Below are positions 8,796 through 39,400 of a stretch of 47,915 nucleotides of DNA, in pieces. The DNA lies in NCBI GenBank assembly GCA_021299385.1, contig JAJTGZ010000027.1, positions 1-47,915 on the forward strand, read 5' to 3'. How positions within the stretch are numbered: the stretch's first letter is position 1; each line of letters opens with the position of its first letter. The DNA is from Phycisphaeraceae bacterium. Its GTDB lineage: Bacteria; Planctomycetota; Phycisphaerae; Phycisphaerales; UBA1924. Under the pieces are notes generated by a model. It was not told the DNA's origin. It saw nothing but the letters and a program-made list of their open reading frames with translations, and did no database searches. The translations under genes and the position numbers were made by a program.

Positions 8796-10034
8796 CGCCT
8801 GTGCCTTCTTGCGCCGGTATTCCAGGTTCCCGAGTTGCCCGCACGCGGCCATCTGATCTCGCCCTTTGGTCCGTCGGCGTTTGACGTAGACGCCTGTGCT
8901 GGCCAGTGTGGTGATGAAGCGTTCGACGGTTTCCTCGTCGGGCGCGGGCCAGGGTGAGTCTTGCCGGGGGTTGTAGGGGATGACGTTGACGCAGCAGCGC
9001 AGGGGTGCGTCTGCGTCGCCCTGGATCCACTTGGCAAGCTCTCGGGCGTGCTCGTCGAGGTCGTTGACGCCGGGGATGAGGACGTACTCGAGCATGATGT
9101 GCCCGCTGCCATGGCGGGGCCAATCGGCGATCGCGTCGCGGAGTTTGTGCATGGGCATCGGGCGGTTGATCGGCATGATGCCCGAGCGGATGTCGTCGCT
9201 CGGCGCGTTGACAGACACGGCCAGGCCCAGGCGGTGGTAGCCCGGGGTCAGGATCAGCCCGCGAAGCTTGGCCAGCCCGTCGATCCGCCCGACGGTGCTG
9301 ATGGTGATCCGCGAGGAGGCGATGTTCGGCCCACGCCGGTCTGTCAGCACGTAGATCGCCTGTGCCACGGCATCAAAGTTGTCCAGCGGCTCGCCCATGC
9401 CCATAAAGACGATGTTGCGGATCGGAGCGCCCGCGTCCGGGCGCGTCAGCAAATGCTCGGCGGCGAACCACTGCTGGACGATCTCTTGTGCCGTCAGCGA
9501 GCGCACCAGCCCCATCTGTGCCGTCTGGCAGAACGCACACCCCATCGCGCAGCCGACCTGCGACGAGAGGCAGAGCGTGTACGAGCGGGTGTTGCTCTTA
9601 CCCATCATCGGGATCAGGACCGACTCGGTCTCGAGTGTGGTGGTTGTCGCAGGTGTGGTTGCTGTTGGTGCCTGCCCGGCGATGGTGAGGTTGATGGTCT
9701 TTGCCGTTGGCGTCCCGGCAAGGTCTTTGGGGACGCGCTGTGTGAACTTGATGACTGTCCCCTCGGGGCTTTCGCTGGCCAGCACCTGGTCAATCGGGGC
9801 GACGTGCGGGGCGGGTGCGGGCAGGGACCACTGGCCTGTGCGGAAAAACGCCGAGTATCCGCGGAGGGCACCAGTAGTGCCGTCGTGCACGGCACGGCGG
9901 GCGGCATGGGCGAACTCTTGGCTCGTCAGGGCAAGGATGTTGGCGAAGGCCTGCACGCTGATGATATTGGGGGGAAGACAAATAGCCAAATGGTCAAATG
10001 GCCAAATGCTCAAATGCTTCGATGATGGGTGCAT
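8793..10034 (-). CDS. rlmN: RlmN/Cfr-type 23S rRNA (adenine-C2) methyltransferase, radical SAM
   Basis: Radical SAM enzyme that methylates C2 of A2503 in 23S rRNA and A37 of some tRNAs. The family core is intact: the CX3CX2C cluster CAMGCAFC with the preceding mechanistic Cys seven residues before (TLCLSSQVGC), FMGMGEPLDNFD, ISTVGRIDGL, LAVSVNAPSD, EYVLIPGVNDLD, NVIPYNP and the C-terminal second active-site Cys in DQMAACGQL. The N-terminal domain is poorly conserved and Ala/Thr-rich. The first ~22 residues from the ATG at 10034 are encoded by an octanucleotide repeat, and the conserved-length protein would begin near the in-frame GTG at 9956, so the true start is doubtful. Its stop codon lies inside a heptamer repeat. 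Downstream it converges on the amidohydrolase. Confidence 0.93.
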   Translation of the reverse strand: MHPSSKHLSIWPFDHLAICLPPNIISVQAFANILALTSQEFAHAARRAVHDGTTGALRGYSAFFRTGQWSLPAPAPHVAPIDQVLASESPEGTVIKFTQRVPKDLAGTPTAKTINLTIAGQAPTATTPATTTTLETESVLIPMMGKSNTRSYTLCLSSQVGCAMGCAFCQTAQMGLVRSLTAQEIVQQWFAAEHLLTRPDAGAPIRNIVFMGMGEPLDNFDAVAQAIYVLTDRRGPNIASSRITISTVGRIDGLAKLRGLILTPGYHRLGLAVSVNAPSDDIRSGIMPINRPMPMHKLRDAIADWPRHGSGHIMLEYVLIPGVNDLDEHARELAKWIQGDADAPLRCCVNVIPYNPRQDSPWPAPDEETVERFITTLASTGVYVKRRRTKGRDQMAACGQLGNLEYRRKKAQA

Positions 10035-10086
10035 CAGTTATTTATCCATTTGGCCATTTGGCAATTTGACCATTTGACCATTTTCA
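9978..10086. repeat. Octanucleotide repeat arranged as an inverted pair (AAATGGCC family)
   Basis: Left arm of about five 8-bp units (AAATAGCC, AAATGGTC, AAATGGCC, AAATGCTC, AAATGCTT). A short unique centre follows, then a right arm of the complementary units (CATTTGGC, CATTTGGC, AATTTGAC, CATTTGAC). The arms pair into a long imperfect hairpin. It is AT-rich in a GC-rich genome. It overlaps the annotated 5' end of rlmN. Related copies: 19822-19847, 20258-20346 and a GC-richer variant at 16237-16266. Confidence 0.85.
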
Positions 10087-10296
10087 TCCCCCGCCCGACG
10101 CCGGCAAACCCGGGTGGGCCTCTTGCCCGTCCCCGCCTGTTTGCCGGCGTTGGCCCGCCAGTGCGTTTGGTTGCCCTTGCTGGCGTGCCGATGGTGCGCT
10201 CAGGTCTGCACGGCACGGATGCACCGCCACAAACCCGACCCCGCCCGATCAGCCACGCTCGCAAGGGCCAAGACGCGCGGACCGCCAAAGTTGAAA

Positions 10297-10785
10297 CTAC
10301 CAAGTAGTAGCAAGGTTCGTCGGAGCGTGTTGCGCCATGGCGTGCTCACGCGCGCCCGGCATGGGGTAGAACTTCTCGAGCGCATCGAGCAGCAGGTGCT
10401 CATCGCAAAGCACTAGCGCGCAGTCCTCAGCGATAGACCGGTTGACATAACGCAACGCCCTGGGCAAGTGCCGCTGCGCGGTTGCCAGCAGCACACCCTC
10501 AGGCCCCCGGCGCAGCGGCAACACCTTGAACTGCCAAGCCTGCCGGCGGTTGACCAGGGCCTGCACCGTCGTGTCCACGGCCTCGGCCGTCGGGTTCACA
10601 CGCGGCGCGTAGTACGCAAGCTGCGCCGCCCAGGCCCGGTCAAGGCTCTCGGGCGCAAGCCCAAAGAGCTCCTCGGCCAGCACGCCGAAGGGGCGGGCCT
10701 TGGTCTGCTGGTGCGCAACGATCTCCTCGCGCTGATCAGCCGTAAGCATCCCTTGTTGAACGAGCAGGTCGCCGATGCGGAGCAT
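10297..10785 (-). CDS. MshEN/GspE N-terminal-like domain protein
   Basis: 162 aa. The opening residues MLRIGDLLVQQGMLTADQ and the pattern up to about residue 60 match the N-terminal domain of type II secretion/type IV pilus ATPases (GspE/PilB/MshE), here without any ATPase domain. Such free-standing domains can bind c-di-GMP in MshE, but the second half (LPLRRGPEGVLLATA, LRYVNRSIAEDCALVLCDEHLLLDAL) has the GspE-N fold pattern rather than a clear MshEN nucleotide motif. A strong Shine-Dalgarno AAGGAGG sits 5-6 nt before the ATG and fixes the start. It lies upstream of rlmN on the same strand, 262 bp away, and divergently from rarA. A role in secretion or pilus control is inference. Confidence 0.75.
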   Translation of the reverse strand: MLRIGDLLVQQGMLTADQREEIVAHQQTKARPFGVLAEELFGLAPESLDRAWAAQLAYYAPRVNPTAEAVDTTVQALVNRRQAWQFKVLPLRRGPEGVLLATAQRHLPRALRYVNRSIAEDCALVLCDEHLLLDALEKFYPMPGAREHAMAQHAPTNLATTW

Positions 10786-11202
10786 GTTCGCCTCCTTCTG
10801 TCAACGCCCCGTGGCGGTGACACAACATGGATCGACCCCCGGGCCGCCCCGCTCAACGACCCACGTCAATGCACCCGCACGCGCGCGGCGTGGGGAAGTT
10901 GTGCCGAGCGGGCGCACCGTGCCGGGCACGCAAGCCGAGGCGGGTCGCGCATGCAAAAACTCTTCCGGCTGCCCTTGACACCGCGCACTTTGTATTGCAT
11001 GCGGGTGGGGCTGCGTAACAGCAGCGGGGTCTATTCTCGGGCGCGTGCAGGCGGGTGTGCACGCTGGTGCGTGGGTGTGCCAAAAAGCCTAGAAATCCGG
11101 ACGTTCAGGCCGTGTTCTCAGACCCCCCGGCTCGGATATGGGGCGGGCCTGGCGCGTCGGCGTGCGGGCTTTTACACGCGCGTGGACCTCTACGATCGTG
11201 CC
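10786..11202 (+). other. 417-bp divergent intergenic region upstream of rarA
   Basis: Contains a consensus TTGACA at 10975-10980 without a convincing -10 at 17 bp. Also contains TATTCT at 11032-11037, which precedes a GTG at 11045 by 7 nt. That GTG opens a 15-codon reading frame (ending TAG at 11092) that could be a leader peptide or chance. No repeat family or RNA gene is recognised in the rest of the region. Confidence 0.4.
11191..11196 (+). promoter_or_regulatory. Putative -10 element of a leaderless transcript (rarA)
   Basis: TACGAT ends 6 nt before the rarA ATG at 11203; a TTTACA lies at 11171-11176 (spacer only 14). No Shine-Dalgarno is present before the start, supporting a leaderless or near-leaderless mRNA. 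Confidence 0.45.
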
Positions 11203-13915: not shown

Positions 13916-14821
13916 TCACACCCGGGTTGAGCCCGGCGGGGGCGAAATCCCCCCGCGCACGGCCCGCACGACTGAAACCGCCGGGAACAGGCCCGCGACT
14001 TCCTCCCGAGCTACTACGCGGGTCGGAAAACTCGGGTTCAACGATTGCAAAACCAGGTGCGTATGCGTCCCAGGCTCGCGCGCCCGCGGCCCCGCGCCCG
14101 GCCCGTCAAGACCCCACGAAAACCACACACGCTTGAACGCCACCTCCGCAGCACGCTCCAAACGCACAAAGCAGTCGCTCCCATCAGGCACCTCCTTGCC
14201 CGGCGAGAAGACCACCACGTCCCCAGCGCGATACTCCGGCAGCATGCTCTCGCCAACAACCGTGCACGCGAAAGCGTCCGCATCGTGTACGTCAGCAACG
14301 CGCACATGCCGGTCAGACGTGCCGGCCGGGTAACCCAGGTCCGTAAACTCCTGCGCCTGCCCCGCCTGCACCGCGTTGATCAACGGCACCTCGGCCCACG
14401 CCGGCTGCACATGCCCAAGCTCCCCGCCCGGCGCGCCCCCCTGCACCCCGGCGTCCAGCGCACGCACCAGCGAGGCCAACTTCCCGCTCCGGTACAGATC
14501 GTCGAGCGAACTGCTGCGCATCGCCTGCCCAAGCTCCGCCGCGGCCACCCGGCTGCGGTGCAACTGCGACAGCTCATCGCGCGTCGCAGGCTCCGCACGC
14601 GCCCACCGCGCCGCGCGAAGCAGTTCCCCAACGCCCAGCCGCAACGCACCCTCAAGGCGACCGATCAGTTCATCGCTGGGCACCCCGGCGTTCTTGCCGT
14701 TCTCGATCTGCGAGAGGTAACTACGCCCGCACCCGACCCATTGCGAAAGCTCCTCAAGAGTCATCCCACGCGCGCGGCGGGCCGTACGCACACGCTCACC
14801 TAAGGGCGTTGTTAGGTGCAT
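13916..14821 (-). CDS. Phage-type repressor: XRE helix-turn-helix + S24 LexA-like peptidase
   Basis: 301 aa. Residues 6-66 form a Cro/CI-type HTH (LGERVRTARRARGMTLEELSQWVGCGRSYLSQIENGK). A helical Ala-rich linker follows, then an S24 domain with the catalytic serine S192 in GESMLPEYRAGD and the general-base lysine K230 in VAFKRVWF; the surrounding DVVVFSP and FVRLE strands fit LexA/CI. The Ser/Lys pair is intact, so autocleavage on RecA activation is possible, although the exact cleavage site is not clear. GGGGAG about 8 nt upstream supports the start. A consensus minus-strand promoter at 14948-14976 drives it with a leader of about 120 nt. It is divergent from the HTH-ABC-GNAT-terminase operon, the classic place for a regulator of that module. 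Confidence 0.9.
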   Translation of the reverse strand: MHLTTPLGERVRTARRARGMTLEELSQWVGCGRSYLSQIENGKNAGVPSDELIGRLEGALRLGVGELLRAARWARAEPATRDELSQLHRSRVAAAELGQAMRSSSLDDLYRSGKLASLVRALDAGVQGGAPGGELGHVQPAWAEVPLINAVQAGQAQEFTDLGYPAGTSDRHVRVADVHDADAFACTVVGESMLPEYRAGDVVVFSPGKEVPDGSDCFVRLERAAEVAFKRVWFSWGLDGPGAGPRAREPGTHTHLVLQSLNPSFPTRVVAREEVAGLFPAVSVVRAVRGGISPPPGSTRV

Positions 14822-14947
14822 GGGCTCGCTCCCCTTGCGCTTGTTCCCCTACCCACGCCTCTTAACCCACCCATTAGGGTGATAGGAAGACCCCATTTCT
14901 TCATCATCATCCCCGACCTGTTGCGCAATCTTGTGGACATACCAAAC

Positions 14948-14976
14948 AGGGTACTTGCAAATAGGTTCACTGTCAA
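14948..14976 (-). promoter_or_regulatory. Sigma-70-type promoter for the S24 repressor
   Basis: Read on the minus strand: TTGACA (complement of 14971-14976), a 17-bp spacer, then TACCCT (complement of 14948-14953). The -35 is perfect and the -10 matches the TACCCT form seen upstream of exbB. The predicted start is near 14941. Confidence 0.65.
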
Positions 14977-14979
14977 GTA
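14952..14979. promoter_or_regulatory. Candidate operator dyad in the repressor/HTH divergent region
   Basis: TACTTG (14952-14957) and CAAGTA (14974-14979) are perfect inverted half-sites with centres 22 bp apart, about two helical turns. They bracket the -35/-10 elements of the repressor promoter, where an autorepressor would bind. The surrounding 14880-15000 stretch is clearly AT-richer than the genes. Confidence 0.4.
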
Positions 14980-15030
14980 AACATACCCATAAGTTTCGGT
15001 CCCAAGCACCCCAAACCGCAAGAGAGACCC

Positions 15031-15573
15031 ATGTTGACACAGATAACCCCAACCTTCCCCAGCACGACGATGATCCCAACCCCATCGCCCGTTCCTCCCC
15101 CCACCCGCCCGCTGACGTGTACACCCACCCGCCCGCTGACCCGACCCCTAACACGTGGGGAGCTCCGGCGTGCGATGGACCTGCGTGTCCGCACCGGGGC
15201 CGCCGCCGCCGAGGCCATCTGTGCCCGTGCCGAGTACCTTCCGCCGAGCGACCGCGAACTCGTCCGGGCGGTCTATCAGCGTGGGCAGTCCCTGGCCGCG
15301 CTGGGCACGGCCGTGGGTGTGCCCCAAAAGCACCTCTCACGAAGGCTCCGCAAGATCGTTGCCCGGATCAATGCCCCGGCCTTTGCACTCGTGGTGGTGC
15401 GGGGCGATTCCTGGGAGGGACGCCTCGCCGCCGTCGGCAGGGCGGTCTTCGTCGAGGGGTGCAACCTTCGGCAGGCGTCCAAGCACTTGAACCTGACGTA
15501 CCACCAGGTCCGTGCCGCTCGCGATGTCATCGAGGGGATCGTCGCAACGCTCACAAGCAAGGAGGCAGCATGA
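15031..15573 (+). CDS. Dual helix-turn-helix protein at the head of the terminase module
   Basis: 180 aa. The first ~42 residues are Pro/Thr-rich, including a repeated PTRPLT unit from 12-bp direct repeats. Residues 70-110 resemble a sigma-70 region 4 HTH (LPPSDRELVRAVYQRGQSLAALGTAVGVPQKHLSRRLRKI). Residues 135-170 form a second HTH-like unit (CNLRQASKHLNLTYHQVRAARDVI). Such a DNA-binding protein directly upstream of a terminase could be a small-terminase-like recognition subunit or a module-specific regulator; I do not recognise the family. The start is uncertain: ATGs at 15031, 15070 and 15174 are all possible, and the last would remove the Pro-rich leader. The stop overlaps the next start as ATGA, implying translational coupling. 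Confidence 0.65.
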   Translation: MLTQITPTFPSTTMIPTPSPVPPPTRPLTCTPTRPLTRPLTRGELRRAMDLRVRTGAAAAEAICARAEYLPPSDRELVRAVYQRGQSLAALGTAVGVPQKHLSRRLRKIVARINAPAFALVVVRGDSWEGRLAAVGRAVFVEGCNLRQASKHLNLTYHQVRAARDVIEGIVATLTSKEAA

Positions 15574-16286
15574 AGGTTCCGTCAACACCCAAACCATCAC
15601 CCGCGCGCAAACGCACACTCCAGGCCGCCAGCGCCTTCGGCCTCGATGCCGACGCACCACGCCGGGCGCACCAACGCCGGGCCGCACGCCTGGGCCCCGT
15701 CGCCGAAGCCGCCCTCTCGGCCGTGGCAGGCGGCGGGGTTGTCCTCATCACCGGGCCCTCCGGCGCTGGCAAGAGCACGCTGCTGGAACTCATCGCCGCC
15801 AAGCTCCCCTCACCCAGACGGATCGACCCGCAGGCCCAGCTCCGAGACATCCGCTCGCCGATCTGCACCCTCTCAGGCCAGCCACTTGACCAGTGGCTGG
15901 CACACCTGGCACGCTTTGGCCTGGCCGAGGCGATGCTCTGGCTGCAACGCCCGGGCGAACTCTCTGCCGGTCAACGATGGCGCCTTGCCTTTGCCCTGCG
16001 GTTTGTCGGCGTGCGACCGACGCTCATCTGCGACGAGGCGTGCGCGATGCTCGACCGCATGACGGCCGTGTGCATCTGCATGAACCTCCGGCGTGAAGCC
16101 ACACGCTCGCCCGGCGCAAAGCTCATCCTGGCAACCAGCCACGACGACCTGCTCGTGGCCCTCAACCCCGACGTACACGTACGGCTGGACCTGGGCGGGC
16201 ACGCCAGGGTCGAAAGGCTGCGGCCGCCCGTTGGAGCCACCTGCCAAGTAGCCAAGTGCCAGGTGGGCAGGTCCCGCGCTGCATGA
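15570..16286 (+). CDS. Compact soluble ABC-type ATPase (COG2401-like ATPase half)
   Basis: 238 aa with no membrane segment. Walker A GPSGAGKS at residues 62-69, signature LSAGQ at 131-135, Walker B plus catalytic Glu LICDEACAMLDR with E156, D-loop MLDR and switch His H191 in ATSHDD, so the ATPase site is complete. The Walker A to signature distance is only about 65 residues, shorter than in transporter ATPases, which points to an SMC/UvrA-like or specialised soluble ABC protein. The DEACAMLDR...ATSHDDL...PDVHV pattern fits my recollection of COG2401, ABC ATPase fused to an acetyltransferase. Here the acetyltransferase is the next gene, joined by an ATGA overlap. The last ~12 residues are encoded by a repeat. 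Confidence 0.85.
   Translation: MKVPSTPKPSPARKRTLQAASAFGLDADAPRRAHQRRAARLGPVAEAALSAVAGGGVVLITGPSGAGKSTLLELIAAKLPSPRRIDPQAQLRDIRSPICTLSGQPLDQWLAHLARFGLAEAMLWLQRPGELSAGQRWRLAFALRFVGVRPTLICDEACAMLDRMTAVCICMNLRREATRSPGAKLILATSHDDLLVALNPDVHVRLDLGGHARVERLRPPVGATCQVAKCQVGRSRAA
16237..16266. repeat. Octanucleotide-type palindromic repeat inside the ABC gene 3' end
   Basis: CCACCTG...CAGGTGG arms of 7 bp enclose GCCAAGTA/GCCAAGTG octamers. These resemble the AAATAGCC/AAATGGTC units at 9978 and 20258 with G/C substitutions. The repeat encodes the tail TCQVAKCQVGR of the ABC ATPase and ends 17 bp before the GNAT start. Confidence 0.55.
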
Positions 16287-16999
16287 GCCATCGTGGGGTG
16301 TGCATCTCGGTCGTGCCCGGCACGCTGGTGGACTATGCCCACCTGGCGTGCTGGCATTACGTCGGCAAATCCCCACGCGCGCCCGTGCTGGTGCTGACGG
16401 CACGCGCGCAAGGCCTGGCCACGCCCGCGGGGGTGCTGGTCGTCACCAGGCCCACACTCAACGGGGCGTGGCGCGCGTCGGCGTGGCCCGGGTGGCTCAC
16501 AGGCCTGGGCAAACGCGACAGCGCCCAACGGATCAACGCCGAGCTGCGGTGCATCGCACGGGTCGTTGTTGACCCGCGCGTGCGCGGGTTGGGCGTAGCC
16601 GGGGCATTGATACGGCACTACCTGGCGGCCCCGTTGACCGCTAAGACCGAGGCCGTGGCACGCATGGGCGTCGTCGTGCCGATGTTTGTCAGCAGCGGTA
16701 TGCGGCGTGTCGATGGGCTTGATCCAAGCCCACAACTCTCGCGCCTGCGCTCGGACCTGGCCGCCGCGGGTGTGCGCACCTGGGAACTGGCCGACGCGCG
16801 CGTGCGCCGGCGTGTGGAGCGTGATGCGGGCTTGATGCGCCGCTGGCGCGTCTGGGCGCAGTCGGCCCCCGGCGCAAGGGGGGCGATTGCCACTGCGGGG
16901 CTTGTCGAGGGGACCTGGCCGGCGGTCGCTTGCGATGCGTCGGCGTTTGTGCATGAGAACAACCAACCGGGAGGGAAAGATGCCGAGGGTGTCGGGTAA
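16283..16999 (+). CDS. GNAT-family N-acetyltransferase coupled to ABC ATPase and terminase
   Basis: 238 aa. The acetyl-CoA pyrophosphate loop is R-x-x-G-x-A form: RVVVDPRVRGLGVAGALIRHYL with R101-A106. The preceding beta-strand pair (APVLVLTA, GVLVVTRP) and the later VARMGVVVPMFVSSGMRRVDG segment fit a GNAT fold of the COG2401 acetyltransferase type. The C-terminal third is helical and basic (ARVRRRVERDAGLMRRWRVW). The acceptor is unknown; candidates are a partner protein or a DNA-bound ligand. The start ATG overlaps the ABC stop as ATGA, and the 3' end overlaps the terminase start by 20 bp, so the three products are made together. It has no signal or membrane segment. Confidence 0.82.
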   Translation: MSHRGVCISVVPGTLVDYAHLACWHYVGKSPRAPVLVLTARAQGLATPAGVLVVTRPTLNGAWRASAWPGWLTGLGKRDSAQRINAELRCIARVVVDPRVRGLGVAGALIRHYLAAPLTAKTEAVARMGVVVPMFVSSGMRRVDGLDPSPQLSRLRSDLAAAGVRTWELADARVRRRVERDAGLMRRWRVWAQSAPGARGAIATAGLVEGTWPAVACDASAFVHENNQPGGKDAEGVG

Positions 17000-18737
17000 A
17001 AAACAGGTCAAGGGGCAAGTCGAGTTGTCAACAGACGGGCTTGCCGGGGGGCTCGCCCAGGAGATAGTTGCTGTGGCGCCGGCACCGAAGCCAAGGGCGA
17101 GGCGCGCTCGCCGGGCCGGTCTGCCGGCGCGTTGGCCAGCGGCGTTGGTGCACCCGCCGAGGTCGGTTGAGGAGCTCGTCGTCGCCGTGCGCGAGGTCTT
17201 TGGCGTGCGCGTTCCCCGGCGTGCGGTTCGCAGCGGCAGCGATGCGCCCCTGGCCTACCTCGTCCACTCGTTCTTTGAGGGCCGGCTGGGTGTGGACGGG
17301 CAGGGCAAAGAGGTTGATCTCAAAGACGCGCCCCTGCCGCCTGATTGTGTCGTCTGGGCCGCGCGCGGCGGCGGCAAGACGTTTTTGGGCGCGCTGGCGA
17401 CCGCGCTGGACCTGATCTACAAGCCCGGCATCGAGGTGCGCATCCTCGGCGGGAGCCTCGAGCAGAGCAAGCGCATGCACGCGCACCTGGTAGACCTGCT
17501 CACCCGAGAGGGCGTCTCAGCGGTGCTCAAGGGCAAGCCGACGGCGCGGGGCGTCAAACTCAAGAACGGCTCGTGCGCCGAGGTGCTCGCACAGAGCGAG
17601 TCGAGCGTGCGTGGCACGCGCGTGCAGAAGCTGCGGTGCGATGAGGTGGACCTCTTTGACCGCCAGGTCTGGGACGCGGCACAACTAACAACGCGCTCGC
17701 TGAACTACCCGGGGCCGTGGGGGGAGAAAGTCGCCGGGGCGATCCACAGCAGCAGCACGATGCACGTGCCGATGGGCCTGATGTGGGAACTCGTCGAGCA
17801 GGCGAGGCCGCCGGTGGGGCGTGGCGGGAGCGCTCAAGAGAGCAAGGCCGAGCGCGTCGCGTTCCGTTGGGGGGTTGTCGATGCCCTCGAAGCGTGCGCC
17901 CAGAGCGAGGACTGCACCTCGTGTGCGCTCTGGAACGACTGCGCCGGCGAGGCGAAGAAGCGCAGCGCCGACGAGGCCGGGCACGTTGGTATTGACGACG
18001 CCCGGCGGATGAAAGGCCGCGTGAGCCTGGTGGTGTGGGAAAGTGAGATGCTCTGCCTGCGCCCACGCGTTACCGGGAGCGTCTTCCCGGAGTTTGATTG
18101 GACCGCGCACGTGCTCGGGCAGGGGCGTGTCGAGGAGATTCTGAGCAACCAGCCCAGGGTGGTGCGCAAAGGTGATGGTCAAGAAGATCGCTGTGCACTG
18201 GCGTGGCCCATCGGCGGCCTTCGGCTGGTGGCGGGGATGGACTTTGGCCTGCGTGCGCCGACGGTGATCCTCTGGGGCGTTGTCGATTCACTGGGCGTTT
18301 TGACGATCATCGATGAGTATGTGCACACCGGGCGGACGATCGCCGAGCACGTCGGGCACATCAAGGCGTCGCCCCTCGGCCTGCCCGAGGCGGTCTGGTG
18401 CGACCCAGCCGGGCACGCGCGCAACGACCAGACGGGCGTGAGCGCCATCGGGGTGATGGTCGCCGCGGGTGTGAACGCCAAGGGTCGCGGCACAGGGATC
18501 GCCGAGGGCATCGAGGCGCTGCGCGCACGCCTGGCCCCGGCGGCGGGGGGGCCGACGCTGCGGATCAGCGCATCGTGCACGCACCTGCTCAAGAGCCTGC
18601 TGCGCTACCGCTACAACGAGCGCGACCCGAGCGACGAGGTGCCAATGAAAGACGGCAGCGACCACGCCGTCGATGCGCTGCGGTATCTGGTGATGGGCCT
18701 GGAGGGCGGCCGGGCCGGGGAGAGGCGGTACGCGTAG
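16980..18737 (+). CDS. terL: Terminase large subunit (TerL): packaging ATPase + RNase H-like nuclease
   Basis: 585 aa. ATPase domain: Walker A AARGGGKT (about 127-134), Walker B plus catalytic Glu LRCDEVDLFD (about 217-226). Nuclease domain with the three acidic clusters expected of the RNase H/RuvC fold: GMDFG (D421), WCDPAGHARND (D475), and DHAVDALRY (D561, D565). Between the domains is a cysteine cluster C306-x5-C312-x2-C315-x5-C321 that could bind Zn or Fe-S. All catalytic residues look intact and length is normal, so this is not a decayed relic. GGGAGG just before the ATG fixes the start, overlapping the GNAT gene. No portal, capsid, protease or tail gene follows; the next gene is an unrelated VanZ-like protein on the other strand. 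Confidence 0.93.
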   Translation: MPRVSGKKQVKGQVELSTDGLAGGLAQEIVAVAPAPKPRARRARRAGLPARWPAALVHPPRSVEELVVAVREVFGVRVPRRAVRSGSDAPLAYLVHSFFEGRLGVDGQGKEVDLKDAPLPPDCVVWAARGGGKTFLGALATALDLIYKPGIEVRILGGSLEQSKRMHAHLVDLLTREGVSAVLKGKPTARGVKLKNGSCAEVLAQSESSVRGTRVQKLRCDEVDLFDRQVWDAAQLTTRSLNYPGPWGEKVAGAIHSSSTMHVPMGLMWELVEQARPPVGRGGSAQESKAERVAFRWGVVDALEACAQSEDCTSCALWNDCAGEAKKRSADEAGHVGIDDARRMKGRVSLVVWESEMLCLRPRVTGSVFPEFDWTAHVLGQGRVEEILSNQPRVVRKGDGQEDRCALAWPIGGLRLVAGMDFGLRAPTVILWGVVDSLGVLTIIDEYVHTGRTIAEHVGHIKASPLGLPEAVWCDPAGHARNDQTGVSAIGVMVAAGVNAKGRGTGIAEGIEALRARLAPAAGGPTLRISASCTHLLKSLLRYRYNERDPSDEVPMKDGSDHAVDALRYLVMGLEGGRAGERRYA

Positions 18738-31270: not shown

Positions 31271-33352
31271 ATGGGACCGATGCCGATTGTTCTGAGAACC
31301 TCATCGCTGACGTGCGTGGCGTTGTTGCTGCTGGCCGGCAGTGGCCAAGCTTTGGCGCAAGGGCCAGGCGCAGGCGTGGCGCGCGTGCCGGAGGTCCCGC
31401 CGTCGATGACCAACCCACCTGCGCCGCCTCGGCCGGCGGAGGAGCGTGCGCCCGAGGCGAGCAGGACGGGGGAGCTGCAAGGGCCCCGGCGGTTGTTGCC
31501 GATTACGAGCTTTGAGGTGCGGTATGCGGAGGCGAGCCGGCAGATACCGAGGCTGCCCGGCGTGCCGGAGTTGCTGGCCGGGGCGGTTGTGAAGCTCGGC
31601 AGGCTGCCCGATGGGACGTTTGTGGCGCGTAAAGATGGGGGCGAACCGATCGACTTGCGGGTCGGTGAGTTCGCCTCCCCGACGCCAATCATGTTTGACG
31701 GCGGCCCCGAGGCGGACCTCAACGACGGCGGGGCGATCGCGGCGGTAACGACGGCCATCACGGCGGAGCTGCGAAGGCGCGGGGTCGTAGGGGTATTCGT
31801 TACCCCGATCGTCGCGGGTGTCGATGCAGCTGGCAGGACCATCGACGGCGAGGTGGACGAGTCGCTGGCCGACGTGCGTAAGCCGGCCGGGCGCACGTCG
31901 TTCCGGCTGGAGATCTTTGTCGCGCCCGTCGGCGAGGTGCGGACGCTGGCCATCGGCGACCGCGTGCCGGTGGAGGAACGGCTGAACAGCCCGGTGCACG
32001 CGCTGATTCGCAAGCGGTCGCCGGTGCAGGTGGGGGACACGATCGACAGGAACCTGGTTGACGATTACACGCTGCGGCTCGGCCGGCATCCGAACCGGCG
32101 TGTGGACGTGGGGGTCTCGCCCAACTCTGACAAGGGGGACTTGTCGCTGGATTATCTGGTGAGCGAGGCCAAGCCGTGGCAGGTGATTTTGCAGTTGTCT
32201 AATACCGGCTCGTACCAGACGAGCCAGCTGCGTCAGCGGATCGGGTTCCAGAACACGCAGCTGACGGGCAACGACGACGTGCTGAGGCTGGACTATCTGA
32301 CGTCGAACTTTGACTCGGCCAACGCGTTGTTGGGCAGTTACGAGATGCCCTTCCTGGCCGAGCGGCTGCGGCTGCGCGGGTATGGCAGTTACAGCGAGTA
32401 CTCCGCCAGCGAGGTTGGCTCGTCGCAGGACTTCAACGGGGAGAGTTGGCTCGTCGGCGCGGAGCTGAACTGGAACTTCTACCAGCAGCGGGAGTGGTTC
32501 ATCGATGCGGTCTTCGGCGCTCGGTACGAGAACATCCGCACGCAGAACAACACGCTGTCAGAGACAGGGCAGTCGGGGTTCTTTATCCCGAGCGTCGGGG
32601 TGGTGCTGTCGCGGAACAACGAGAAGTGGAGCACCAACGCGGGGGTCTCGCTGGAGTTCAACGTCGCAGGGTGGGGGGGGACGGGGACGAGCCAGGAGCT
32701 GCTGCCGTTGGGTCGGTTTGCGGCGGACCAGGACTTTCAGATCGTGCGTGGGAATGTTGAGCAGAGTTTCTTTTTAGAGCCGCTCTTGGCGCCGGATTCG
32801 TTTGCGGGCAAGGGGCTTGGGCCTGGGCAGGTCTGGCAGCCTGGGATGACGCTGGCGCATGAGATTTATGTTGGTGGGAAGTTTTTCACATCGGTCGACC
32901 AGCGGCTGGTGTCGAACTTCCAGGACGTGCAGGGTGGGTTGTTCACGGTGCGTGGGTACCCGGAGAACTTCGTGGCCGGGGACAAGACGGTGTCGCTGAC
33001 GGGTGAATACCGGCTGCACATCGACCGGCTGCTGGGTGTTGACCCGAACAACTACGGGACGTTTTTGGGCCAGCCCTTCCGTGGCAAGGCGCAGGAGCCA
33101 TTCGGGCCGACGGACTGGGGTGTGATCGTGCGTGCGTTCTGCGACTCGGCGGTGGTGTATCAGTCGGACAAGTTGCCGTTTGAGAACAACAGCACGCTGA
33201 TGAGCGTGGGCGTGGGCACGGAGGTGCAGCTGTGGCGGAACTTCAACGGGAGGGTCGATTGGGGCTTCCCGGTGCGGGATGAGACGTCCAACGGAAGGAC
33301 TGTCGAGGCGTGGGATGGGCGGGTGTCGTTTATTGTTACGGTGATTTTCTGA
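31271..33352 (+). CDS. TpsB/ShlB-type outer-membrane two-partner secretion transporter
   Basis: 693 aa. Signal peptide with cleavage near ALA-QG (residue 29), then a Pro-rich linker and a periplasmic part (about 70-270) with POTRA-like sequence (ITSFEVRYAEAS, RRRGVVGVFVTPI, DDYTLRLGRHPNRRVDVGVSP). The remainder is a beta-barrel: alternating strands such as WQVILQLSNTGSYQTSQLRQRIGF, DVLRLDYLTSNFD, and FTVRGYPENFVAGDK containing the VRGY/F signature of the Omp85/TpsB loop. The protein ends in aromatic Phe (IVTVIF), the barrel-assembly signal. The gene stands directly before the giant TpsA-like gene, so it is its dedicated exporter. AAGGGA precedes the ATG. Confidence 0.9.
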   Translation: MGPMPIVLRTSSLTCVALLLLAGSGQALAQGPGAGVARVPEVPPSMTNPPAPPRPAEERAPEASRTGELQGPRRLLPITSFEVRYAEASRQIPRLPGVPELLAGAVVKLGRLPDGTFVARKDGGEPIDLRVGEFASPTPIMFDGGPEADLNDGGAIAAVTTAITAELRRRGVVGVFVTPIVAGVDAAGRTIDGEVDESLADVRKPAGRTSFRLEIFVAPVGEVRTLAIGDRVPVEERLNSPVHALIRKRSPVQVGDTIDRNLVDDYTLRLGRHPNRRVDVGVSPNSDKGDLSLDYLVSEAKPWQVILQLSNTGSYQTSQLRQRIGFQNTQLTGNDDVLRLDYLTSNFDSANALLGSYEMPFLAERLRLRGYGSYSEYSASEVGSSQDFNGESWLVGAELNWNFYQQREWFIDAVFGARYENIRTQNNTLSETGQSGFFIPSVGVVLSRNNEKWSTNAGVSLEFNVAGWGGTGTSQELLPLGRFAADQDFQIVRGNVEQSFFLEPLLAPDSFAGKGLGPGQVWQPGMTLAHEIYVGGKFFTSVDQRLVSNFQDVQGGLFTVRGYPENFVAGDKTVSLTGEYRLHIDRLLGVDPNNYGTFLGQPFRGKAQEPFGPTDWGVIVRAFCDSAVVYQSDKLPFENNSTLMSVGVGTEVQLWRNFNGRVDWGFPVRDETSNGRTVEAWDGRVSFIVTVIF

Positions 33353-33393: not shown

Positions 33394-33463
33394 GTGGAAG
33401 TGATAGATCGTGGCGGATGCACGGCGGCCACGGGGCCTGGGCTTGAGTTTGCGAAGGATTTCC

Positions 33464-36400
33464 ATGAAAACGATTGCTGCAACGTTTGCTGCCGGTTTGA
33501 CGGGTGGTTCTTTGGCTGCCGGCAGGGGCGGGCCGGGGGCGTTGCTGCTGGCATTGCTGGCCGGGACGGTGTGCAGCAGCGCGCTGGGCCAGCAGGCAGC
33601 GACGGGGCCGGTGGACCCGCGTGTGGTGGCCGGGTCGGCGGCGTTTGCCCGGCATGGGAACGACTTTACGATCACGACCAGCCGGGTTGCGATCATCAAC
33701 TATTCGAGTTTCAATGTTGGCGCGCAGGACTCGGTGCGGTTTGTGCAGCCCGATGCGCAGAGCCGGGTGCTCAACCGGATCACCAACATGATGCCCACGA
33801 CTATCCAGGGGCGCGTGTCGGCCAACGGGCAGGTGTATTGGATCAACCCGGCGGGTGTAACCTTCACGCCGACGGCGACGATCAATGTTGGGCAGTTTTT
33901 CGCGGCGGCGGGGGCGTTGTCGGACAAGGACTTCCTGGCCGGGGTGAACAACTTTACGGGCCTGAAGGGGAAGGTTGAGAACTACGGGAGCATCACGGCC
34001 GGGTCTGTGAACCTGGTCGGAGCGGCAGTGGCGAACTATGGGACGATCCACGGCCTGGAGAACGCGGTGGTGCTCGCCTCGGGCGATGAGGTGCTGGTGC
34101 AGCAGCGCAGCGGCGGGGGGGGCGAGGGGAACCTGTTGGTGCGCGTGGCTGGCGGGGCGGGGGTTGGTGGTGTGGTGAATAAAGGTGAGGTGGTGGCGCG
34201 TAAGCGTGTGGCGTTTGCGTCCGGCGACATTGCGTCGCTGGCCATTGACAGCCGGGGGTTGGTGCGGGCGCCGGTGGTTACGATGGATGCGCCGCGTGGG
34301 AACGTGCTTGTGGGCGGGCGTATTGATGCGAGCAACGCGCGCGGGGCAGGCGGGACGGTGCAGATCACGGGGGATCGGATTGCTCTTGACGGGGCGCAGA
34401 TCGATGCCAGCGGGAGCCACGGCGGGGGTCGGATCAACATCGGTGGCAACGAGCGCGGGGAGCCCGGGCCGCTGGGGAGCAGCCAGAGCGTGTACGTCTC
34501 GGGTGGGTCTTCGCTGCGTGCCGACGCGACGGTGTCGGGCGACGGCGGGCGGGTGATCGTTTGGAGTGAGGTGGCGACGAACTTCCAAGGCTCGGCCAGC
34601 GCGAGTGGTGCGGGGGCGAGCGGGTCGGGTGGGTTGATCGAGACGAGTTCGCGTGGGTCGCTGAGCGTGGCCAGTGAGGGGATCACGGCGGCGGCGAGCG
34701 GGACCGGGCAGGCTGGGCTTTGGTTGCTGGACCCGTCGGACATAACGATCCAGGCGGGCGGGGCGACGGCCGGGCCGCCGGTGGATTTGTTTAACCCGGT
34801 GGGGGCTTCGGGCGTTGTTACGACGACGGACATTCTCAATGCGTTGGCGACGACGAACGTAGAGATCTCGACGGCGGCGGGGACGGGTGGTGCCGGGACG
34901 ATCACGGTGGCGGGGAGCACGAACCTGGTTTATGCCGGGGCCGCGGCACGGACGCTGACGCTGACGGCCAATTCGTCGATCACGATGAACGCCGGGGCGG
35001 TGCTCTCGAGCAGCAACGGCGCGCTGAGCGTGGTGCTCAATGCCGGGGGGGTGGTGGATGTCAACGGTGCGGTTACGACCAACGGCGGGGCGTTTACGGT
35101 CGCCAGCACGGCGACGGGGTTTACCCTTGGCACGACCGGGAGTGTGAACACCTCGCTTGCGGGTGGTGATGGAGGGGTGATCTCGATCCGCCCGACGGGC
35201 GCGGTGGTTGTGAGTGGGCCGATCAGCACGAACGGGAATATTTCTGGTGCCGGGCTTGCGACGGCCGAGTCGGCCTTGCCGATTGTGCAGATTTCGGGGA
35301 CGGAATTGACGGTCAACAGCACCGGGAGCATTGTGGGCGCGACGGGTGCGCGTGGTGGTTCGATCTCGGCGGTGATCGGCGGTGGCAACATCACGCTGGC
35401 CGGGCCGGTTACGACGACGACGGTGGGGCCGCAGGGTTCGTTCGTGCGGCTGTCAGCCGGGGGCGTGGTGAGCCAGAGTGGCGCGGGCGTGATCACCGGC
35501 GGTGCGCTGGCGGTGCGTGCCGGTGGGCAGATCACCCTTGATCTTGCGAACCAGTTGCGGGCCAACACGGATGCGACGGCGACGTTTGGCGCGGCGTCGA
35601 TGACGAGCACGCTGGGTGGGATCACCTTCCGCAACGGCTTTGGGATCAACATCACCCCGATCGGGGCGTTGGCGTTTGTGGGGGATGCGGGCACGGGCGT
35701 TGCGCAGACGGCGGGGCTGACGGCAACGTCGGCGGGGTCGAACATTGTCCTTACCTCGACGGGCGGGGGGATTCAGTTGGTGGGTGCGGCGGTTGCAGCA
35801 CCTGTTACGACGGGGACGGGGACGGTAACACTCAATGCGCTGGGCACCTCTGGCATCGCCTTTGAACAGAACGCCAACGCGCCGATCACGACGACAAACC
35901 TCACGCTGGGGTATGTCCCCGGCGGCAGCGGCGCTGCGCTGCTGGACCGTGCAAACAACAACATCGGCCGGCTGGATGCGAACCTGACGGGCGGGGGCAC
36001 CAACGCGTTTATCCGCTTGCGGAACGACGCGAGCCTGGTGGTGGGCGACGTGGTGCTGCCGTCGCCTGCGCACAGCGCTGGCAGCGATGTGGCGGGTAAC
36101 TTTTTGTTGCTACGGTCGAACGGGAGCGTAACGCAGGGGGCGGGCACGAGCATCGTCGGGCGTGGTTTGGCGCTGCTTGGGTCGGGCGACTATGTGCTGG
36201 CGAACACTGGCAACAACGTGAGTGTGCTGGCCACGAGCGGGCCGGGGAATGTCAGTTACCGCGACGCGGCGGGGGGGCTTGAGATCGGGTCGATCGACGC
36301 GACGACGCCGTTGAGCTTTGGCACGCGGGGGAACGTTGTGGGAGTGAGCGTGGGGGCTGCGCCCGACGGGACGGTGGGCAACGGGGGCCGCTTTGACCTG

Positions 36401-39400
36401 CGTGTGGACGGCGGGGTGATCTCGCAGACTAGCGCGGGGAGGGTTTTGGTCGACACCTTGAGTGTAACGAGCGTTGGGGCGGTGAACCTGCTGGCGAGCG
36501 CGACGAACAACGCCGACGCGGTGGAGGGGTTGGTAACGGGGACGAACTCGCGGTTCCGCTTCCGGGACGTTGACGGCGTGGCGGTTGGTGCGGCCGGGGG
36601 GCTGACGGGTATCACGACCAACGACAGCGATGTGGACCTGATCACTGGGGGCACGCTGGTGATCGGCGAGGCGATCAACGCCGACGGCACGCCGGGGGGT
36701 GCGCTGGGTGGTGTGTCGCTGACGAGCGACAACGGTGCGACGCAGAGTGCCAGCATCACGGCCAACCGGCTGCTGCTGACTGGTAGTGGGAACTTTGCGC
36801 TCGATGGTGTGAACAACAGCGTGGTGATCTTGAACGCATCGGTGCTGTCGGGCGGGTCGGCAACGTCGATCCGCCTGCGGAGCGACACGGCGTTGACGAC
36901 GGTGGAGGCGGTCGGCAACTCCGTGGGTGAGGGCCGGCCGGGGCTGCTGGCACTCACGAGCAACAACAGCGTTGTGCAGGCCGTGGGGACGACGACGGAC
37001 GTGCAGAACATCGTGCTGCGTGGGAACGGTAGTTACACGCTGCGCGCCGGGCCGGTCTTTACGACGGTGCCGACGGGGACAACGACGCTGGCGGCGAACC
37101 TGGGTGGTGCGACGAGTTTCATCAACATCACCAATATCGGCGCGTTGGTGGTGGGGACGGTCGATGGGACCGGCGGGATCACGCTGCCGACGGCGGGTGT
37201 GAACATTGTGCGGTTTGCCAACGCGACGGGGACGCAGGTAACGCCCTCGACGGTTACGCAGGGTGCGGGGGCCGGTGAGGGGATCACGGCGGGCGGGTTG
37301 ATCGTGGCCGGGAGCGGGAGCGTTACGCTGGGCAACGCGCTCAACAACGTCGGCGTGCTGGCCGGTGCGATGGACACGGGCACGTCGGTTTATTTGGCCA
37401 ACACCGGGGCGTTGTCCATCGGCGTGGTGGCCAACGACACGGGCCTGCCTGTGGCGCAGCGGGTTTCGGCGACGGGCTTTACGGGCACGACGCTGACGGT
37501 TGTGAACGTTGGGAGTATGGGCTTTGACCAGCCGACGAACCTTGGGGCGACGGTTGGGACGCTGCGGTTCACGGCGGGGGCTGTTACGCAGGGGGCCGGT
37601 GGTGCAATCACGGCCAACGCGCTGGGCGGGGTCTCGACGGCGGGCATCGTGCTCGATGGGGCCAACGACGTGAACACTGTTGCGCTGACGACGCTGCCGG
37701 GGACGGGGGATATTACGTTCAACGGCAACAGCGGGTATACAGTCGGCACGGTCTCGGGCGTGGCCGGGTGGAACGGCGGGGTGAACCTTGTTGGCGTGCT
37801 TGCAACGCGTGGCGCCGGGGCGACGCCCGGGGATGGGGCGGTCGTTACGCTCTCTGGCAACGGGCTGATCGGGCAGTCGGCGGATGTTGCGGGCGTGGCA
37901 ACGGGGAATGTGGAGGGGGATGTTGTGCGCCTCACCGGCAGCGGGTCGGCAGACCTTGGCACGTCGCTGTTCAACGACGCCGACGCGCTGGAGGGTGCGT
38001 TGACGACGGCGGGTTCGGCGCTGGTGTATGCCGACCGGAACAACCTGCGTATCGGGCACACCGGTGGGCTGGCGGGTGTCTTGACGAACAACGGGAACAT
38101 CACGATCCGCACGGGTGTGTTTGATACGCCCAGGACCAACCCGCCGGTGGTGGTCGGGGCGTTGACGGTGGGCGAGGAGGTCTCGGCGGGGACGGGGCTG
38201 GTGGTCATCGACAGCACCGGCGGGGCGACGCAGACGGGCACGGGGCGGATCCTTGCCGGTGGGTTGAGCCTGCTGGGACAGGGTGCGTTCATCCTCGATA
38301 CGCTGAACAACGATGTGGACACGCTGGCGGGGCTGGTTACGGGCGCGACCTCTGGCCTGGCGTTCCAGGACGACGACGGGTTTGATATCGGCACGGTGGG
38401 GACAACGCTGGGCGTGAACGTTGGCACCGCGGCGGGCAACGCGCTGGTGCTGCGGTCGTCGGGCCTGGTCACGCAGAGCCAGGGGCTTGTAACCGGAGGG
38501 CTTGGGCTGCGGGGTGTGGGGCCGACGTATGTGCTCACCAACTCGGGCAACAGCTTTGCGGTGCTGGCCGCGAGCACGAGCGGGGCGGGTGGGATCACCG
38601 CGCGGACGGGCGTGGCGGCGCAGATCGGGACGGTTACTTCGCCGGATGCGAGCACGATCAGCGGGGTGAACACGGGGGCGACGACGGGCGTGGTGGCATT
38701 GCAGAGCACGGCGGCGTTCACGCAGGCGGCCGGTGCGTCGGGTGTGATCACGACGGATCAGTTGGTGCTCATGGGTGCCGGGCCATTTACGCTGACGAAC
38801 ACGGGCAACGACATCAACCGCTTGGCAGCCGGGCCGTCGAACAGTGCGGACACGCCCGCAGGGGATCGGCTGACGAGCGGGCCGACGTCGATCTCGTTCG
38901 TCAACGCCGACGGGTTTGCGGTTGACACGATCGACCCTGCGGGTGTGAACATCGGTGTGGTGTCGGGGCTGAACACTGCGGGGGGCATTGGCCTGTCCGC
39001 CTCCAACGGGGACCCGATCACACTTCGGCAGAACGTCGTGAGCACCGGCGGCGGTGCGGTGGTCTTCTCCAACGCGGTGCTGCTCGATGCGCCGGGTCCC
39101 TCGCGGACCGTTACGGTCAACGGCGGCAACGGGATCGTGCGGTTCTATGGGCCGATCGATGGGGCGGTTGGGACGACGAACCAGCAGCGCCTGGTGGTGC
39201 GCTCGGCCGCGGTGCCGAGTGTTGATTTGCCGCCGATTGGGCTGTCGGGGAACATTGGCAGCACGCGTGCGTTGCTGTCGGCGGACATTGGCGGGAACCT
39301 CGGGTCGGTCCCGGCGTCGTCGACGGTGGTCTTTGCGAGCAACTGGTTGCAGGCCGTGGGGCCGAACCAGCACCGCATCTCGGTTACGCCCGGCAGCGGC

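Follow-up and report, generated by a model that had tools for sequence, protein, structure and literature searches.

A phage-type large terminase gene inherited without linked virion genes through the bacterial class Phycisphaerae

Bacteria keep phage parts as whole machines, among them gene transfer agents, tailocins and injection systems, and few known DNA motors are as strong as terminases. In RcGTA, the gene transfer agent of Rhodobacter capsulatus, terminase, portal, capsid and tail genes are kept in one cluster. We know of no terminase that a whole bacterial class has inherited by itself, with neither portal nor capsid. Here we describe a module at positions 13916-18737 of a 47,915-nucleotide stretch of DNA from a Phycisphaeraceae bacterium (the window, which is the entire contig C26 of a 2.63-Mb genome in 111 contigs). 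In this module, an S24 repressor gene on the minus strand is divergent from a plus-strand operon encoding an HTH protein, an ABC ATPase, a GNAT-fold protein and a large terminase subunit (TerL). Like RcGTA, the module represents vertically inherited, phage-derived genes under selection, a terminase included; unlike RcGTA, no virion gene is linked to it. We found no published description of the module, and the listed papers on Phycisphaera terminases and planctomycete gene transfer agents seemed incidental by title and opening of the abstract; none turned up on COG2401.

Similar gene orders occur in tailed phages. The head operon of Pseudomonas phage nickie and Rhizobium phage RHph_Y2_11 reads ParB-ParB-ABC-GNAT-(DNA-binding protein)-TerL-portal-capsid, and phage SSU5 carries ParB-ParB-ABC and one more gene where the others have GNAT. 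In nickie, the gene at this place belongs to phrog_886, a family also matched by the window GNAT. ABC, GNAT, a DNA-binding protein at the position of the small terminase subunit (TerS) and TerL stand in the same order in nickie and RHph_Y2_11 and in relatives of the module, with ParB genes beside them. In contrast to the module relatives, in which ParB lies between GNAT and TerS, the phages place ParB before ABC, their TerL lacks a four-cysteine (Cys4) motif discussed below, no S24 repressor is annotated adjacent to the operon, and the operon continues into portal and capsid. Prophage L349, from the Phycisphaerae genome G389, which belongs to a different family, likewise carries ABC-GNAT-ParB-TerS-TerL, with a TerL of the same family (306 bits), but proceeds to portal (phrog_145, which also includes the nickie portal), scaffold (phrog_206) and capsid (phrog_1357), and its TerL falls outside the main clade of chromosomal TerLs. 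Viral contigs L053 and L065, from metagenomes, encode a TerL with the Cys4 motif and a portal gene directly after it. Based on these orders, the bacterial module stops where the phage operon proceeds to the portal, and therefore represents the front, packaging portion of a phage head operon, cut before the portal and domesticated. This origin from the packaging end of tailed-phage head genes is well supported. In a tree of 38 TerL proteins, phage and prophage TerLs fell outside the main chromosomal clade (support 100/96); chromosomal TerL L351 (family f98) and L360, whose downstream genes are not known, grouped with the phage proteins.

Two observations on viral contigs stand apart from this argument. 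Contig L051 (IMGVR_UViG_3300034175_000195), filed as viral, encodes GNAT and a TerL 45% identical to that of the window's family, and may be a piece of Phycisphaerae chromosome miscalled as virus. In IMG/VR contigs L054-L091, the terminase is seemingly divided into two genes, a nuclease (about 170 aa) and an ATPase (about 310 aa), 1-3 kb apart and often with a ParB-like gene nearby (for example, L062, 7598-8104 and 9881-10828).

A preliminary description of the window had reported the five genes, their intact active-site residues and overlaps, ordinary flanks and the lack of virion genes nearby, and our analysis agrees on each point. All five open reading frames (ORFs) are in place (Table 1), the repressor has Ser192 and Lys230, and the operon genes are joined by ATGA overlaps at 15570-15573 and 16283-16286 and a 20-bp overlap at 16980-16999; the GNAT assignment, weak for the window protein alone, is clear in fused relatives. 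The HTH gene, divergent from the repressor, is best regarded as the one that opens the TerL operon. The flanks encode ordinary chromosomal proteins (radical SAM/RlmN-like, MgsA/RarA, VanZ, MotA/ExbB, two ExbD, redoxin and DsbD_N), and 40 further ORFs matched no annotated phage family. Linked portal, capsid and tail genes, by which a prophage would be recognised, were not found at the window module.

Of 150 related genomes, 114 had TerL matches, covering 90 of 115 genera and mostly consisting of one full-length copy per genome. When 246 genomes of the phylum were searched with a profile, strong full-length matches were confined to the class Phycisphaerae, and matches elsewhere were weak, as expected for ordinary phage terminases. 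Among 198 genomes sampled from the class, ~103 gave strong matches (E below 1e-60), or ~95 after a more distant phage-like group was excluded. The arrangement of a repressor divergent from HTH-ABC-GNAT-TerL was repeated in 20 genomes (20 kb fetched from each), with outer genes mostly of different families, while the same small chromosomal genes followed TerL in about half of 80 further loci, some with a ferredoxin-like gene. Overall, the gene order recurs in scores of genomes, far beyond chance. In several families, GNAT and TerL are separated by two further genes, one for a ParB-domain protein and one for a TerS-like protein, giving repressor, then HTH-ABC-GNAT-ParB-TerS-TerL, as the fuller order of the wider family; the TerS-like label rests on position, since no database family matches that protein.

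The TerL gene can also stand by itself. In several families of other orders (L253, L254, L255, L357, L358 and L359), neither ABC, GNAT nor repressor turned up in the TerL neighbourhood, and the catalytic residues of L253-L255 are intact; in L251, HTH-ABC-GNAT and TerL are ~4 kb apart, separated by other genes. Since TerS, and finally all linked partners, were lost in some lineages, the function that was kept is arguably TerL's own motor and nuclease rather than classical packaging into a cognate head, although this is an argument and not a proof. In two of the TerL-only loci, the solitary gene adjoins and is divergent from dnaA (TerL at 9565-11085 and dnaA at 11501-12931 in L253; 9771-11276 and 7954-9369, respectively, in L254), possibly placing it near the replication origin.

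The module has been inherited vertically through the class, under selection. Each multi-genome GTDB family tested formed one clade both in a TerL tree and in a tree of the housekeeping protein RarA (28 genomes), and the two trees have their deepest split in common, between the order and the group f7,(f8,f9). Because the branching of some families within the order differs between them, the agreement, though strong, is incomplete; in the 38-protein TerL tree, moreover, one f9 genome grouped with f103, f104 and f106. The ratio of nonsynonymous to synonymous substitution (dN/dS) for TerL within genera mostly fell in the range 0.10-0.37; one divergent pair reached 0.55, a TerL-only pair gave 0.15, and values for the other module genes were similar or somewhat higher. 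Hence vertical inheritance and purifying selection, both expected of a gene transfer agent, were found, whereas the mobility, patchiness and tree conflict of a PICI-like phage satellite were not: trees were concordant and the gene mostly single copy. The preliminary description had named an order unique to this genome and relaxed selection as outcomes that would count against it; recurrence of the order in scores of genomes and low dN/dS are the opposite, and bear out its idea of a domesticated terminase module without a capsid. An ordinary decaying prophage remnant, or a satellite, retained by chance would account for the phage gene content. However, tree agreement, low dN/dS and catalytic residues intact across the class contradict the remnant, vertical inheritance makes the satellite unlikely, and a conserved operator and partly conserved chromosomal position further speak against chance retention, which we regard as highly improbable.

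TerL itself has no Pfam match and was identified through phrog_2. Its AlphaFold2 model (pLDDT 86, pTM 0.82) matched the solved large terminases of D6E, T4, Sf6 and HK97, plus predicted phage terminases, in a structure search. As judged from sequence and model, the protein has the Walker A/B ATPase, the RNase H-like nuclease with its Asp residues and the fold of a large terminase. The ATPase residues GGGKT and CDE, motif ST, nuclease residues D421, D475, D561 and D565, and four cysteines were identical in 112 of 125 compared TerL sequences. The cysteines (C306, C312, C315 and C321 in the window TerL) form the Cys4 motif between the ATPase and nuclease domains, which some viral terminases also have; it may bind a metal or an Fe-S cluster.

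These same properties are compatible with the main rival explanation, in which the module serves the packaging step of a gene transfer agent or transduction system, with heads and portals supplied in trans by unrecognised chromosomal genes or resident prophages: damage would switch on TerL, which would fill those heads with host DNA. The motor and nuclease are intact, inheritance is vertical and selection purifying, as in known gene transfer agents; several families retain TerS and ParB, and lambda-type prophages are common in relatives, with up to 14 portal copies per genome (G114). The lambda-type elements of relatives, however, are prophages with their own GpA-type terminase, and no tested portal or capsid family tracks TerL. 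The HK97-type portal (PF04860) and capsid (PF05065) were found in 12 and 8, respectively, of 81 genomes and not in the window's own genome, while the lambda-type portal (PF05136) was found in 29 of 71, including the own-genome contig C83; none of these distributions follows that of TerL. Genomes such as G016 and G038 carry TerL and match none of the three. The families to which the cognate prophage's portal (phrog_145) and capsid (phrog_1357) belong do recognise L349 (phrog_145 also recognises prophage L364), and they matched none of 121 genomes, nor did any control genome match in these searches. Virion-gene profiles that we built matched just L349 and L364, both used in building them, among 160 module loci (2.7 Mb). 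No co-conserved portal or capsid was thus linked at the loci or, among the families searched, which were not all families, distributed like TerL. Finally, TerS has been lost in many lineages, the window's included, and an operator search (below) revealed no second locus. We regard supply of heads in trans as unlikely, and the gene-transfer or satellite-packaging device suggested in the preliminary description gained no capsid or portal gene in its support.

The own-genome match on C83 belongs to a lambda-type prophage (L272, 5474-13622) that encodes a TerS-like protein, a PF05136 portal, an S49-protease/capsid fusion (PF25209) and a collagen-like protein; a 764-aa ORF between the TerS-like gene and the portal occupies the GpA position, from which its family is taken. 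Virion genes elsewhere in the genome, which might have made one prophage with the module, therefore do exist. A TerS-like gene, an ORF where GpA-TerL would lie, a portal and a capsid are all present in this prophage itself. It therefore seems to be a separate element, and we rejected the idea that the module is part of it.

The repressor resembles LexA and lambda CI in pairing an HTH with an S24 domain that bears a cleavage site and Ser/Lys dyad; it differs in being the module's own, beside a distinct canonical LexA. The Ala153-Gly154 cleavage motif, Ser192 and Lys230 are kept in about 90% of 66 relatives, and these features, with a predicted operator at its own promoter, are those of an autocleavable repressor. 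The palindrome TGTTCACTNNNNAGTGAACA occurred in the divergent region with ≤3 mismatches to TGTTCRCTNNNNAGYGAACA in 36 of 64 relatives' regions, compared to ~0.2 expected from shuffles. Likewise, promoter element CCTTGCAA was present in 21 of 66 relatives and ACCATACA of the upstream element, which in relatives reads TGTGCGC...ATACCATACA, in 20 of 66 regions (0.5 expected in each case). Searching 101 genomes with the operator (2 mismatches) returned about as many matches as a reversed control, with no hint of a wider regulon, and several of the better matches lay at the module itself. That the repressor is simply the genome's LexA was ruled out, as a separate canonical LexA is encoded on C42; the homologue L040 scored 30.5 bits with LexA model TIGR00498 (cut-off 110.95 bits), and weak second matches of 21-37 bits in relatives fell in several cases at the module. 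Repressor anatomy and operator are consistent with damage-inducible control, which the repressor family would suggest.

In 23 relatives of the module, ABC and GNAT form a single ORF, an ABC ATPase fused to a GNAT domain in the manner of COG2401. By domain architecture rather than the COG model, this lends weight to the COG2401 link made in the preliminary description; in the window, by contrast, the two are separate genes coupled to TerL and the repressor. A model of a fused relative matched ABC nucleotide-binding domains (Z 19), and the search returned ABC domains throughout, making it uninformative on the GNAT part. The ABC-GNAT unit, dropped by some lineages that kept TerL, would be an accessory; a role in DNA modification or licensing is a guess. 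Mom-type modification, suggested by an HY...P motif, was dropped, as no Mom family matched and a literature search was empty.

Taken together, a module without shell genes, inherited intact under selection, probably does some DNA job for the bacteria. We propose that an ancestor of the Phycisphaerae captured the repressor and HTH-ABC-GNAT-ParB-TerS-TerL without portal and capsid genes, and that the module descended vertically from there, the window lineage later losing ParB and TerS and keeping ABC and GNAT as two coupled genes. The dedicated CI/LexA-type repressor would occupy the palindrome over the -10 region; upon DNA damage, a RecA filament would cause it to cut itself at Ala153-Gly154, turning the operon on. 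TerL would then load on cellular or invading DNA, which its ATPase would pump and its RNase H-like nuclease would cut, and it would not fill a capsid of its own. As a whole explanation, a phage packaging-end origin with a capsid-less, damage-inducible TerL motor and nuclease has, in our estimate, a probability of roughly 0.55. More tentatively, and at somewhat less than even odds, the class may have made a viral terminase a core, capsid-independent cellular DNA motor and nuclease, controlled in most lineages by a damage-responsive repressor and standing alone in others, in places beside dnaA. Were TerL to work capsid-free, it would represent a new DNA translocase/nuclease of the cell; were it to fill heads in trans, the result would be a class-wide gene-transfer route in Planctomycetota.

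Several points weigh against our proposal. Most genomes of order-level family f2 lack the TerL gene, which is therefore dispensable there, and the repressor is unlinked in TerL-only lineages, so damage control is not general. L351 branches next to the phage group, making a second capture possible. Expression, induction, ATPase and nuclease activity are all predicted from sequence, and the search for capsid partners covered only some portal and capsid families. A further rival holds that the module is an antiviral or anti-element device in which, after repressor cleavage, the host TerL disturbs packaging by incoming phage or cuts phage concatemers. Phage origin, repressor control, a nuclease, a compact operon and related phages within the class would suit this role. 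PADLOC, however, gave only generic ABC and HTH matches and no specific defence system, and the module is vertical and mostly single copy, whereas defence genes are usually patchy and mobile; we consider such a device improbable.

Table 1. Predicted genes and regulatory elements of the terminase module in the window
Feature	Position	Strand	Basis
XRE/S24 autocleavable repressor, CI/LexA-like, predicted	13916-14821	-	Peptidase_S24 E 8e-12, HTH_31/HTH_3
Conserved upstream element TTGCGCAATCTTG...ATACCAAACA	14920-14948	no strand	common to relatives
Sigma-70-like operon promoter, predicted	14955-14983	+	-35 TTGCAA 14955-14960, 17-bp spacer, -10 TAAACA 14978-14983
Predicted repressor operator GGTTCACTGTCAAGTAAACA	14964-14983	no strand	palindrome TGTTCRCTNNNNAGYGAACA with 2 mismatches; covers spacer and -10
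HTH protein, sigma-70 region-4-like	15031-15573	+	Sigma70_r4 E 9e-6; first gene of operon
ABC ATPase without membrane domain	15570-16286	+	ABC_tran E 8e-11
GNAT-fold acyltransferase	16283-16999	+	Acetyltransf_7 E 0.01 (weak alone), phrog_886; clear in fused relatives
Large terminase subunit TerL, ATPase and RNase H-like nuclease	16980-18737	+	phrog_2 E 2.8e-17

Elsewhere in the window, a 2574-aa ORF (33410-41131, plus strand) lies downstream of a gene for an outer-membrane-barrel-like protein (31271-33352, plus strand), and by eye the two resemble a TamA/TamB-type pair.

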